Translations under genes and position numbers: made by a program | NCBI GenBank assembly: GCA_022446795.1 | Contig: JAKVBX010000002.1 | Location: 260,042-314,173, forward strand | Source: Phycisphaerales bacterium | GTDB taxonomy: Bacteria; Planctomycetota; Phycisphaerae; Phycisphaerales; SM1A02 | Direction of reading: 5' to 3' | DNA: 54,132 nt | The notes under the pieces: model-generated | Databases searched by the model: none | Told to the model about the DNA's origin: nothing | What the model saw: only the letters and a program-made list of their open reading frames with translations | In this document: positions 50,119 to 54,132 of the stretch, piece by piece | Layout: the number at the start of each line of letters is the position of its first letter | How positions within the stretch are numbered: the first letter of the stretch is position 1

Positions 50119-51486
50119 ATGGCCATCAAGCAACCCACTGACAAATCCCACTTCCTCCTTCCCGACCTGGGCGAAGGCGTCGCCGAAGCCGAGTTGATTT
50201 CCTGGAAGGTCAACGTCGGTGATCCGGTCGCCGAACACCAGACGTTGGCGGAAATGGAAACCGACAAGGCACTCGTGGAGGTCCCCAGCCCGTGGGCGGG
50301 CACCATTCGGGAACTGCACGGAAGCGCGGGCGACATCATCAATGTCGGCAACGTGCTGGTGAGCTACTCGGTGGATGGTGGCGCCTCGGCGTCCACCGCA
50401 CCATCGGAACCCGCCGAGGCCGCTGACGAAGACGCTGGAACGGTCGTCGGCAACGTCTCGGGCGAACTCTCCATGCCGGCCTCCTTCGCTCGACAGGAGG
50501 CCCCGGCCGTGGCCACCGGCTCGCGGGCCCAGGCCACACCGGCTGTTCGTCGGATCGCCAGGGATCTGAATATCGATATCGATGCGGTCCCGGGAACCGG
50601 ACGTGGCGGACGAGTCACTGCTTCGGATGTCCAGTCCCATGCGACGGGTGCCCCACCGACCGCCGCACCGACTCCACCCGCAGCAGCACCGGCCCCGGCT
50701 CCGGCACCTGCAGCACCTGCAGCCCCCGAACCGGCCTTGGAACCCACGGCACAGATGCCGCTGGCGACCACCCGTGTCGCCGTGACGCCCGAGGGCACGA
50801 TCGAGAAGATTCCGTTCCGTGGAGTCCGACGGAAGATCGCCCAGTCCCTGCATCACTCGGTTCAGACGACGGTTCATTTCACCGTGGTCGACGAGGCGGA
50901 TGTCACCCGGCTGGAACAGAAGCGAGCCGGCTTCGAGTCATTGCTGGGAACCAAGCTCAGCCTGCTGCCCTTCGTGATCTCCGCGGTCTGTGCCGCGCTC
51001 AAGCAGCACCCCACGTTGAATGCCAATGTCGACGACTTCATGGAAGAGATCCATGTCAAGGGACCGGTGAACCTGGGCTGTGCCGTCGATACCGATCATG
51101 GCCTCATGGTTCCGGTCATCCACGGCGCCCAGGACCTGACCTTCGTTCAGATCGGACAGCGAGTCCGGGAACTCGCGGCTGGCTGTCGTGACCGGAGCAT
51201 CCCCCGCGAGGCACTGTCGGGCGGTACGTTCACGATCTCCAACGTCGGAAGCGCCGGTGGCATGTTCGCCACACCGATCATCAACTACCCAGAGGTCGCC
51301 ATCCTGGCGCTGGGCCGGGCCAAGGAGCGGGTCCTGACCCGCAACGGTGCGTTCTATGCCGGTATGGTGCTCCCGCTGAGCCTCAGCTGCGATCACCGGG
51401 TTGTCGACGGAGCCGAAGGCGCTCGATTCCTGGGTACCGTGGTCCGGCTCCTGGAATCACCCGAGACGCTGCTCCCCGAGCTGTGA
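50119..51486 (+). CDS. 2-oxoacid dehydrogenase E2, dihydrolipoamide acyltransferase
   Basis: 455 residues. One lipoyl domain spans 10-88 with the lipoyl lysine in ETDKALVEV (Lys50). A peripheral-subunit-binding domain lies at ~138-172 (TPAVRRIARDLNIDI, GTGRGGRVTASDV). A flexible Ala/Pro linker covers ~175-212. The catalytic acyltransferase domain covers ~225-455, with the active-site His/Asp in CDHRVVDGAEGARFL and the TFTISNVGSAGGMF landmark. It forms the core of the complex with E1 alpha/beta. The E3 (lipoamide dehydrogenase) gene is not present in the window. No SD is seen upstream. Confidence 0.95.
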   Translation: MAIKQPTDKSHFLLPDLGEGVAEAELISWKVNVGDPVAEHQTLAEMETDKALVEVPSPWAGTIRELHGSAGDIINVGNVLVSYSVDGGASASTAPSEPAEAADEDAGTVVGNVSGELSMPASFARQEAPAVATGSRAQATPAVRRIARDLNIDIDAVPGTGRGGRVTASDVQSHATGAPPTAAPTPPAAAPAPAPAPAAPAAPEPALEPTAQMPLATTRVAVTPEGTIEKIPFRGVRRKIAQSLHHSVQTTVHFTVVDEADVTRLEQKRAGFESLLGTKLSLLPFVISAVCAALKQHPTLNANVDDFMEEIHVKGPVNLGCAVDTDHGLMVPVIHGAQDLTFVQIGQRVRELAAGCRDRSIPREALSGGTFTISNVGSAGGMFATPIINYPEVAILALGRAKERVLTRNGAFYAGMVLPLSLSCDHRVVDGAEGARFLGTVVRLLESPETLLPEL

Positions 51487-51517
51487 TTCATCACATCAAC
51501 TGGACGGAAGGAACGCG

Positions 51518-52357
51518 ATGAGTACCTGGTCCTATACGTTGCTTCGCGCCGGCCGATTCCGCCTGGATGGCGGCAGCATGTTCGGCGTCGTTCCTCGCGC
51601 GATCTGGTCCAGGCTCGTGGCCCCCGATGACGACAACTGCATCCCCCTCCAGACCAACTGCCTGCTCCTGGAACTCGGTGGCAGCCGGGTCCTGGTCGAG
51701 ACGGGTAATGGCAACAAGTGGTCCGCCAAGGAGCGGGCGATCTACGGGATCGAGGATCGGACGGTCGAGACCGCCCTGGGTGAGGTCGGCGTCTCACCGG
51801 CCCAGATTGACCTGGTCATCGTCACCCACCTGCACTTTGATCATGCCGGCGGCCTGACGCGGCTTGGCCCCAACGGGGAACTCGACCTGACCTTTCCCAA
51901 CGCGGAGATCATCGTCCAGCAACAGGAATGGGATGACGCCCTGGCCCGACGATCCACCATGAACGGGACCTACCTCGCCAGCCACCTGGATCCCATCGCG
52001 GACCGCGTTCGACCGGTCAATGGCGAAGCCATGATCACGGATGGCCTCCGGGTCATGCCGACACCGGGCCATACCTGGGGACACCAGGCGGTTCTCTTTG
52101 AAGACGCCGATGGCACGATCTGTTTCCCGGGCGATCTGATGCCGACCCGCAATCACGTCGGTCGCTCCTGGAGCATGGGGTATGACATGCTGCCCTACGA
52201 CACGCTCCTGACGAAAGAAACGGTGCTGGCCCGGGCCGCTGATGAGCGATGGCGATTGATCCTCGACCATGAGCCGGGCGAGCCCGTTGTCGTGGTGGAT
52301 CGAGACGAGTCAAAGGCCTGGTTCCGCCTGGACCCCACCCGCGTGCCGCTTCATTGA
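51518..52357 (+). CDS. MBL-fold metallo-hydrolase
   Basis: 279 residues from the ATG at 51518, with GGAAGGA ~6 nt upstream. The metallo-beta-lactamase signature is intact: THLHFDHAGG (HxHxDH), His in PGHTWGHQAV, Asp in CFPGDLMP and His in LILDHEPG. This composition resembles quorum-quenching lactonase-like and glyoxalase-like members; the N-terminal tail GRFRLDGGSMFGVVP is typical of the former. It sits 31 nt after the E2 gene and is probably co-transcribed. A role such as thioester or lactone hydrolysis in the pathway is speculative. The stop overlaps the convergent pglB-like gene by 7 nt. Confidence 0.85.
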   Translation: MSTWSYTLLRAGRFRLDGGSMFGVVPRAIWSRLVAPDDDNCIPLQTNCLLLELGGSRVLVETGNGNKWSAKERAIYGIEDRTVETALGEVGVSPAQIDLVIVTHLHFDHAGGLTRLGPNGELDLTFPNAEIIVQQQEWDDALARRSTMNGTYLASHLDPIADRVRPVNGEAMITDGLRVMPTPGHTWGHQAVLFEDADGTICFPGDLMPTRNHVGRSWSMGYDMLPYDTLLTKETVLARAADERWRLILDHEPGEPVVVVDRDESKAWFRLDPTRVPLH

Positions 52358-54132
52358 CCGTCCGTGACAGGGTCCTCGGCGTCACTTGACTTGATGGTCG
52401 CTTGATTGGGTCGTTTCAATCGAAACACCCGGGCGTATCCGTTCTTGTGAACCAGCTCCCAGAGATCCTTGTCGAACTGCTGCATCGCAACCATCTGGAT
52501 GAGGTTGGAGTTCAGGAACTCGCTGTCGAGAATCAGGACGAGCCCGGACTCCTGGAGCACAACGAGATGCACCAGGTGATAACCGTCCGGAACGGGTTCG
52601 TTGGCACTGACCAATTGGAAATCCCGCGACCCCCCGAGCCCGGCGAGCCGAAATGGCGGTGCCGCCGCCTTTGGCCCCTGCCGAACAAAGGTACTGCCGT
52701 TGGGCATTTCACCGACGTAGGTGATCGACTCGAACTCCACGGGTATCCGGCCGTCCTGGCTCTCGACGGAGGCCGTCAGCGCGTTCATGTCCACGATGAT
52801 CTGGTTCGGCAGGATGACCTCCCGCTCCGAGATTGCCCGGACATCGCGCCGGTCGATGACGTGGTACACGCCGCTCTCGGGATACACCGGCAGGGCATAA
52901 GCCGGATCGGCATACGCCTCAAGCACCCGGAGAAGCTTGATCATCTCAAGCGGCATGTACAGGAAGACGTCGCACGTCGGATCCGGCAGTTCCACACGCC
53001 CTTCTTCCAACTGCTTGATCATGTCCTCGGGCCAGATCGGGGAGTCACCCTGGATATCCAGGTAGTGATGCGATGAGGGCCGATGCCCCGCGGCCGCCGA
53101 TTCCGCCGCAAGCCTCGACAATCCCGCTGCGACATCCTGGGAGTCCGAGCTCACGATCTTGGCAACCGTCCAGCAATCATCGCTGGCACTGATCGGGGTC
53201 ATGAGCACATTGCGCTCACTGTAGTACCAGAGCCCTGAACCATAGTCCCACCAGGAGATCACGTAATCACCGGATTTCGAATTCTCCTTGATCACCCGCA
53301 TGGTCTCGATCGCCTCCTGGGAGAAGATCGTGTTGACCTTGAACGCAACCGCATGTGCGATATTGATCGCAATGAACGGCGATGCCAGCAGCATGCCGCC
53401 GACAATGCTTCCCAGCCGGACCTGGGCCGGCGACAACCGCGGCAGGCACCGCAAGATGATCTTCACGCCGATGAACAGCGCATAGACCAGCGCTGGTGCG
53501 GCCATGAGGCCGCCCCACGTGGTGAATCGCAGACCACCATCGATGGAAAAAGCACCGATGACCGCCACCGGGAGTCCAATGAGAAACCCCGGGTAGCGAA
53601 AACACATCAGCACGTACCCGATGATGGCCAGGATCGCCCCCGTTGAAGATCCGATGATGCGCTGTGCCAACTTGTAGAGCGCTTCCCCCTGGGACTCCAG
53701 TACGGTGCTCTTGTGCGTTTTCCGGAAGTTGATCTCGTCGAGAATCTCCGCACGCTGGAGTTCGACGGGATCGGTCTGGACGATCGCCTGTTCGCCGGTT
53801 TCCAGGAAACGGGAATACGTCTTGACCTGCGTGAGGAAGTAACTCCAGGGCATGCTGAGGATCAGCCAGATCAGGCAGGCGCCAACGACCATGCCGACCG
53901 CGGAAACTGGCCCGCCCGAACCGGATGTCACCCGGTCATCAATCGCCTCGTCGACCCCTGTCTTTCTCGTGGACCCACCGGACCGGGGAGATGCCAGGAA
54001 GTACCAGGCCGCCGCAATGGCGATCACACCGATGAACCATAACCAGGGCGAACTGTACATCTTGCCGCCGTTGGACCATGGGCTGGCCGCTGTACCGGCC
54101 GCGACGAGGGCGATCATGCGCAAGCGACGATC
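52351..54132 (-). CDS. PglB/STT3-type oligosaccharyltransferase, N-terminus cut by window edge
   Basis: 593 residues visible; the frame is open to the last base, so the start lies outside (the TTG at 54123 is internal). It transfers a lipid-linked glycan to Asn in N-glycosylation. The visible part begins in late transmembrane helices. TVLE in HKSTVLESQG fits the TIxE motif of external loop 5. GGLRFT in the last membrane segments and DYVISWWDYGSGLWYYSE carry the diagnostic WWDYG. DVFLYMPLEMIKLLRV aligns with the PglB MxxI region. The end, LNSNLIQMVAMQQFDKDLW then ARVFRLK, parallels the C. jejuni PglB C-terminus as I recall it. The first helices with the DxD motif would lie beyond the edge. Confidence 0.87.
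   Translation of the reverse strand, partial: DRRLRMIALVAAGTAASPWSNGGKMYSSPWLWFIGVIAIAAAWYFLASPRSGGSTRKTGVDEAIDDRVTSGSGGPVSAVGMVVGACLIWLILSMPWSYFLTQVKTYSRFLETGEQAIVQTDPVELQRAEILDEINFRKTHKSTVLESQGEALYKLAQRIIGSSTGAILAIIGYVLMCFRYPGFLIGLPVAVIGAFSIDGGLRFTTWGGLMAAPALVYALFIGVKIILRCLPRLSPAQVRLGSIVGGMLLASPFIAINIAHAVAFKVNTIFSQEAIETMRVIKENSKSGDYVISWWDYGSGLWYYSERNVLMTPISASDDCWTVAKIVSSDSQDVAAGLSRLAAESAAAGHRPSSHHYLDIQGDSPIWPEDMIKQLEEGRVELPDPTCDVFLYMPLEMIKLLRVLEAYADPAYALPVYPESGVYHVIDRRDVRAISEREVILPNQIIVDMNALTASVESQDGRIPVEFESITYVGEMPNGSTFVRQGPKAAAPPFRLAGLGGSRDFQLVSANEPVPDGYHLVHLVVLQESGLVLILDSEFLNSNLIQMVAMQQFDKDLWELVHKNGYARVFRLKRPNQATIKSSDAEDPVTDGQ

Follow-up and report, generated by a model that had tools for sequence, protein, structure and literature searches.

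A predicted PglB-type oligosaccharyltransferase gene and a separate pgl-like glycan locus on one contig of a Phycisphaerales bacterium

We analysed a 54,132-nucleotide stretch of DNA from a Phycisphaerales bacterium (the window; GenBank assembly GCA_022446795.1, contig JAKVBX010000002.1, G000:C12:260042-314173 in our numbering), whose right end holds the C-terminal part of a gene, pglB, predicted to encode an N-oligosaccharyltransferase of the PglB/STT3 kind. An earlier interpretation made from the letters alone (the sequence-only reading) had proposed this identity for a minus-strand frame at 52351-54132, and the frame is indeed there: 593 codons and a stop, open at the window edge. The assembly comprises 3.54 Mb in 78 contigs, and contig C12 continues to position 324131. 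The signature model TIGR04294, tried as a check of the phylum, matched neither this genome nor any control genome and is uninformative, and eight window proteins compared with NCBIfam showed no lineage marker. Following the frame beyond the window added 247 residues, with a start at 314914, so that the whole gene spans G000:C12:312392-314914 (L002:2393-4915, minus strand) and encodes 840 residues. Three N bases just right of the window edge leave three X residues in the product; the corresponding frames of G530 and G533, of the same genus, are 851 residues long and free of ambiguous residues. The simple codon-usage caller that supplied our gene calls placed an alternative start at residue 34 (807 residues), so that pglB may begin at either position.

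Residues required of a PglB were inspected in an alignment of 42 bacterial PglBs, made up of seven sequences from the window's family (the window protein included) and 35 others fetched by sequence. The WWDYG motif, which binds the +2 Ser/Thr of the sequon, was expected around 53250 and lies at 53239-53253 on the minus strand, as residues 541-545, which we take to correspond to W463-G467 of Campylobacter lari. Its W, W, D and G columns are constant in 42/42 sequences and Y is found in 41, the remaining one having F. The other motifs that had been picked out were likewise located, all on the minus strand. TVLE, the TIxE motif of external loop 5, occupies 53695-53706 (residues 390-393), and its last residue, E393, presumably equivalent to C. 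lari E319, is Glu in all 42 rows. GGLRFT, a conserved membrane segment, lies at 53521-53538 (residues 446-451), and the GLRFT columns are invariant in a 20-row alignment. The MxxI-like segment proved to be MIKL, with L for I, at 52933-52944 (residues 644-647). At the first place of this motif the 35 other rows have M (31) or I (4) and the seven family sequences M (5), E (1) or a gap (1); at the fourth place the former have I throughout, and the latter L (4), I (2) or a gap (1).

Past position 54132, where an N-terminal DxD had been anticipated, we found the first-loop residue D75, R170 and the DxD pair D177/D179; D75 presumably equals C. lari D56, and D177 and D179 equal D154 and D156. All four residues are kept in 7/7 family sequences, window included, and in the 35 other PglBs save for one row gapped at D75. 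R170 aligns with C. lari R147, a residue named in PMC4894442. By alignment, R405 (53659-53661, minus strand) matches C. lari R331; it is Arg in all seven family sequences, and one of the 35 others has E. The same source links R331 to the requirement for an acidic residue at sequon position -2 and also describes DgPglB, which has the equivalent Arg yet a relaxed -2 preference, so that the Arg alone does not fix this preference. Since the residue is conserved, the window enzyme would probably prefer an acidic residue at -2.

Profile and sequence searches placed the full protein in the same family. Both Pfam models matched above their cut-offs, STT3 with 57.1 bits (cut-off 24.5) and STT3-PglB_core with 63.5 bits (cut-off 23). 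The top NCBIfam match was NF050801, the PglB equivalog of Campylobacter type (201.1 bits, E 3e-59), whose cut-off of 1300 bits lies far higher, and we therefore do not claim the equivalog name. A sequence search of the PDB returned four distinct sequences at E<=0.001, all PglB, the best at E 3.7e-50; the resemblance is thus far beyond chance. The proposed parallel between the C-terminus and that of Campylobacter PglB was borne out by phmmer, in which residues 767-822 of the 840-residue product pair with 3rce residues 658-713. STT3/PglB enzymes have about 13 membrane helices; a crude hydropathy measure gave 11 membrane segments for the window protein, and 9 and 10 for two named PglBs by the same method. 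An AlphaFold model of the window part (593 residues) gave 16 Foldseek matches at E<=0.001, all of them oligosaccharyltransferases or complexes holding one, with PglB 5ogl at the top (E 2.2e-21, 22% identity in the alignment). As the mean predicted local distance difference test score (pLDDT) was 62 and most of the N-terminal quarter fell below 50, we regard the fold search as supportive only. The alignment behind the model used 19 of the 35 fetched relatives; six are unlisted, and of the 29 listed it omits ten, L068 because it contains a stop codon and nine others in thinning. Taken together, these sequence data make it very likely that the protein is a full-length single-subunit PglB-type N-oligosaccharyltransferase.

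Genes for the lipid-linked glycan had been supposed to lie beyond the right edge of the window. They are not there: to the right, directly upstream of pglB, stands one sugar aminotransferase of the DegT family (382 bits; nearest solved relatives include QdtB and WbpE). Large secreted-type proteins come next: one with FG-GAP repeats, then two for which Pfam gave no match, and the contig stops inside the second of these. The glycan locus is located on the same contig to the left of the window start (C12:260042), at C12:216137-251307, 61-96 kb from pglB. Here we found candidates for the kinds of genes that had been suggested as worth seeking, a flippase, glycosyltransferases and an undecaprenyl-sugar enzyme, in the form of a PglK-like gene, three glycosyltransferase family 4 (GT4) genes and a PglC-like gene.

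Several genes of this locus resemble named enzymes of the Campylobacter pathway. A PglF-like gene (650 residues) matches C. jejuni WlaL, which we take to be PglF, at 2.6e-86. The PglD-like gene scored 207 bits against the NeuD/PglD family (cut-off 160.8), 3e-39 against the pilin glycosylation protein 4m98 and 2e-22 against 3bss, a UDP-N-acetylbacillosamine N-acetyltransferase. Between the PglF and PglD genes lies a DegT-family aminotransferase gene in the PglE position; its best solved relative, 7l7x (9.5e-120), is named merely DegT aminotransferase, it matches 1o61 at 8e-19 and 4ztc at 5e-18, both presumably C. jejuni PglE, and it reached 220 bits against the NCBIfam PseC model, under the cut-off of 423.5. 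The PglC-like gene (196 residues) matches the diacetylbacillosaminyl-phosphate transferase 8g1n at 3e-66. Where PglJ and PglH models are listed for the three GT4 transferases, all scores stay below the cut-offs. Residues 5-573 of a 606-residue ATP-binding cassette (ABC) transporter match PglK at 8e-87; PglK is the best-ranked half-size transporter among the best 60 matches, several full-size P-glycoproteins ranking higher. By sequence, then, the genome holds parts of a pgl-type pathway.

The locus also contains an AsnB-like amidotransferase gene, two sulfotransferase-like genes, a sugar epimerase gene, WbuX and HisH genes over cut-off with a HisF-like gene, and a pseudaminic-acid set in which PseB, PseG and PseI exceed their cut-offs and PseC falls just under. 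The pseudaminic-acid set PseB, C, G and I and the WbuX/HisH/HisF-like trio lie at C12:232125-248328 (L062). Relatives of PseB, PseC and PseI recur in G531; the congeneric genomes G530, G532 and G533 have mostly other genes there.

We then compared this arrangement across genomes. Relatives of pglB were found in 8/181 genomes of the window's family; six of these belong to the window's genus and the remaining two to one further genus each. A class-wide sample yielded pglB in 3/397 genomes. Among the listed family genomes without pglB (153 unmatched ones stand outside the list), none belongs to the window's genus. Four other genus genomes share the order secreted-type proteins, aminotransferase, pglB and convergent 2-oxoacid dehydrogenase genes, not every gene being called in each. 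In the fifth, G529, the contig breaks off within pglB, of which the last part is left, and the same genes stand on its far side. Within the window, a convergent gene of 279 residues at 51518-52357 on the plus strand, inside the open reading frame 51401-52357, overlaps the end of pglB by 7 bases; relatives of it were called in 5/6 genus genomes (absent: G533) and in G522. G522, of another genus, has the aminotransferase (69% identity) and pglB (32%) at the same place. Its pglB stands in a tandem pair of pglB-like genes (L047:5736-10321, G522:C12); the second copy has an in-frame TGA and looks broken, and WWDYG was not found in it. In G348 the contig ends within pglB, and no such aminotransferase was called next to that gene.

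Measured to its nearer end, the locus is ~61 kb away from pglB in the window genome, ~54 kb in G533, ~51 kb in G530, ~58 kb in G532 and ~49 kb in G531. In G522, PglK and pglB are ~45 kb apart on a single contig. Linkage of pglB to the locus within a contig holds for six genomes belonging to two genera. Both ends of the locus are kept between genus genomes, one consisting of UDP-sugar dehydrogenase, PglF, PglE-position, PglC and GT4 genes, the other of PglK and the epimerase; the interior differs. G529 shows the first end only, after which its contig stops. PglD was called in 4/6 genus genomes, and in G532 and G533, which lack the call, a gap of ~0.6 kb is left there.

Presence of the locus genes was next scored against presence of pglB, with the reservation that the resulting p values ignore kinship and the counts are not phylogenetically independent. 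In 23 chosen family genomes, 8 PglB-positive and 15 PglB-negative, a PglC relative was present in 8/8 of the former and 2/15 of the latter (Fisher p 9e-5) at a bar of 189 bits or more, set after the scores were seen. A PglK relative (E<=1e-80) was present in 6/8 and 1/15 (Fisher p 0.002). Over all 181 family genomes, relatives of the PglE-position gene (E<=1e-80) numbered 28, in 8/8 PglB-positive and 20/173 PglB-negative genomes (p 1e-7); counted by genus, the figures were 3/3 and 8/42 (p 0.012).

Linkage and co-occurrence suggest that pglB and the locus genes act together. We therefore favour, with a probability of roughly 0.78, a system in which a PglB-type oligosaccharyltransferase is served by a separate locus on the same contig that would make an undecaprenyl-diphosphate-linked oligosaccharide as donor for transfer to Asn. 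The PglF-like dehydratase, the PglE-position aminotransferase and the PglD-like acetyltransferase would convert UDP-N-acetylglucosamine to a sugar of the di-N-acetylbacillosamine type. PglC may load this sugar on undecaprenyl phosphate, further sugars would be added by the GT4 transferases, and the lipid-linked glycan would be flipped outwards by the PglK-like ABC transporter. PglB could then transfer it to the Asn of N-x-S/T in exported proteins. The sugar aminotransferase beside pglB might supply a further amino sugar. The assignment of the PglE step, which rests on position and superfamily, is the least sure of the pathway.

That last point weighs against the proposed system, as do the kinship-blind p values, the PglB equivalog score below its cut-off and the lack of sequon enrichment in predicted secreted proteins (see below), and so do the occurrences of the locus and its genes elsewhere. 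G380 has a closely similar locus (L135:9211-19395, G380:C18), cut by the contig end, with PglF at 68% identity, PglC at 66% and three GT4 genes in the same order, and pglB was not found there. G394 carries relatives of PglC, PglD and the PglE-position gene, and again pglB was not found. Such genes can therefore act without PglB, and the G380 locus, together with the 20 PglB-negative relatives having the aminotransferase, indicates that the locus can serve something else. A genuine N-oligosaccharyltransferase might stand in a genome whose bacillosamine-type locus chiefly serves to make a surface polysaccharide resembling an O-antigen or capsule, with PglB using another lipid-linked donor or only borrowing from the locus. 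O-antigen loci have fixed ends and a variable interior, as this locus does, and a Wzx-like gene lies inside the locus of G530 and a Wzy-like gene inside that of G348. Genes of the Wzy_C family (PF04932), which includes O-antigen polymerases and ligases, occur in 23/23 genomes tested, and their presence is useless as a discriminator. On the other hand, none of the four matches in the window genome falls inside the locus. The locus encodes, moreover, a transporter related to PglK, which acts as flippase in the known N-glycan pathway; this relative tracks pglB as given above, and the linkage of pglB to the locus is kept across two genera. Weighing both sides, we consider a mainly polysaccharide-building locus a serious rival that is nonetheless rather unlikely. 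G380 provides a natural contrast for the role of the locus without the transferase.

A protein of the STT3 fold, of the glycosyltransferase C (GT-C) type, with a changed acceptor (lipid, polysaccharide or Ser/Thr) in place of asparagine would be compatible with the low identity of the window part to 19 named relatives, 20-28%. It would agree, too, with the lower conservation of PglB between the window genome and its genus relatives, 52-56% identity (four fuller sequences) against ~62-84% for the locus enzymes. Sequon counts, too, gave no signal of asparagine transfer. In 119 predicted secreted proteins among 396 called from ~0.53 Mb of the window's own genome, classified by a crude hydropathy rule, neither D/E-x-N-x-S/T (26 vs 28.0 expected) nor N-x-S/T (244 vs 223.4 expected) was enriched. 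Acidic sequons numbered 7 vs 4.0 expected in 55 predicted membrane proteins and 23 vs 24.6 in 194 predicted cytoplasmic ones. The three secreted-type proteins beside pglB in the window genome contain no acidic sequon, the third being cut by the contig end. Over five genomes, the first neighbour protein has 0, the second 4 and the third 2. We conclude that genome-wide sequon counts neither support nor refute N-glycosylation. On the other side, all seven family sequences retain WWDYG and an intact set of metal-site residues, and a changed acceptor appears improbable.

The secreted proteins beside pglB were also considered as dedicated substrates, and this idea found no support, N-x-S/T being near the shuffled expectation and acidic sequons few, as given above. 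Three large secreted-type proteins adjoin the aminotransferase and pglB in five genus genomes (L002:6324-14132, minus strand, in the window genome).

That pglB is a functionless gene, decaying or of foreign origin, or that it entered the assembly by faulty binning, would fit the patchy distribution in the family and the broken-looking copy of G522. This reading is largely refuted by the conserved synteny and is barely credible: pglB is carried by six genus genomes, five with the same neighbours on both sides, its frame and catalytic residues are intact, and on its 324-kb contig it adjoins metabolic genes that relatives have in the same order.

Of the N-glycosylation pathway proposed by the sequence-only reading, the pgl-like gene set is present, while a working pathway is something that we infer and that the sequon counts do not support.

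In order to place the window protein among its relatives, we inferred a maximum-likelihood tree from 41 PglBs together with two STT3s of archaeal type, excluding L080 (no N-terminus), the G529 fragment (223 residues) and the second, broken copy from G522. The 34 sequences from Campylobacterota and delta groups clustered together (96/100), with the three delta-type PglBs of the set inside the Campylobacterota clade, and the seven window-family sequences fell outside it. Bootstrap support for a single clade of these seven was 32%, and the tree contains some long branches. Because the comparison PglBs were gathered with the window protein as query and include no Desulfovibrio or Aquificae PglB by title, the tree speaks only to the sampled groups, from which it shows no recent transfer. 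On balance it is an even bet that N-linked glycosylation is native to this lineage, with a deep PglB branch of its own rather than a recent Campylobacterota import, and that the system is modular: a fixed bacillosamine-starting core with a flippase, a variable interior, and a transferase set apart by ~50-60 kb, where its neighbours are a sugar aminotransferase and large repeat proteins of secreted type.

Phylum-wide matches to PF02516 (25 genomes, 28 loci) were tried as further PglBs and rejected by DNA comparison with the window protein. Besides the window's own, L006 (G348) alone resembles that protein (E 3e-69); for the others the E value was no better than 0.22 where there was a match at E 10 at all. 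Three genomes of other families in the phylum carry relatives of the archaeal-type STT3, AglB, at L003:1294-3255, L004:1-2727 (minus strand) and L030:1411-3603, with WWDAG or WWDLG motifs; they match TIGR04154 at E 7e-119, 2e-128 and 2e-88, all under its 450-bit cut-off, and may be contamination. G016 alone has four STT3 matches.

The available part of PMC4894442 places PglB homologs in epsilonproteobacteria, in fewer deltaproteobacteria and in aquificae. For planctomycetes, the available part of PMC5088730 describes the S-layer of Kuenenia as O-glycosylated, and the corresponding part of PMC4973528 does not report PglB. We did not find an earlier report of PglB-type N-glycosylation in Planctomycetota in the full-text literature, which mostly leaves out subscription papers and so may miss one. 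The enzyme would thus be of a known kind, in a lineage for which no earlier report was found. If our interpretation is correct, a distinct PglB branch accompanied by a pgl-like locus of its own would make bacterial N-glycosylation more widespread and long kept. Divergent PglBs could be useful for glycoengineering, where the acidic -2 rule restricts usable sites. Genomes with the locus alone, set against those with both locus and pglB, make the role of the transferase testable.

Compared with PglB of C. lari and C. jejuni (family GT66; 5ogl, 3rce), the window protein has the same domain order, catalytic residues, WWDYG and R331 equivalent, and these enzymes are its top PDB and Foldseek matches. 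It differs in length (840 vs 713 residues), in having MxxL for MxxI, in the low identity over the window part in the Foldseek alignment, in lying outside the glycan locus, and in falling outside the sampled Campylobacterota clade. The Campylobacter pgl locus comprises PglF, E, D, C, K and GT4 transferases. The locus described here likewise clusters relatives of PglF, PglD, PglC and PglK with the PglE-position aminotransferase and GT4 genes. Unlike the Campylobacter locus, it has pseudaminic-acid, amidotransferase and sulfotransferase genes inside, and its pglB stands 49-61 kb away in the genus, beside a WbpE/QdtB-like aminotransferase. Bacterial PglBs outside Campylobacterota have already been reported, as PMC4894442 shows for Desulfovibrio, Geobacter and Hydrogenivirga, and the window protein resembles these in its occurrence beyond that group.

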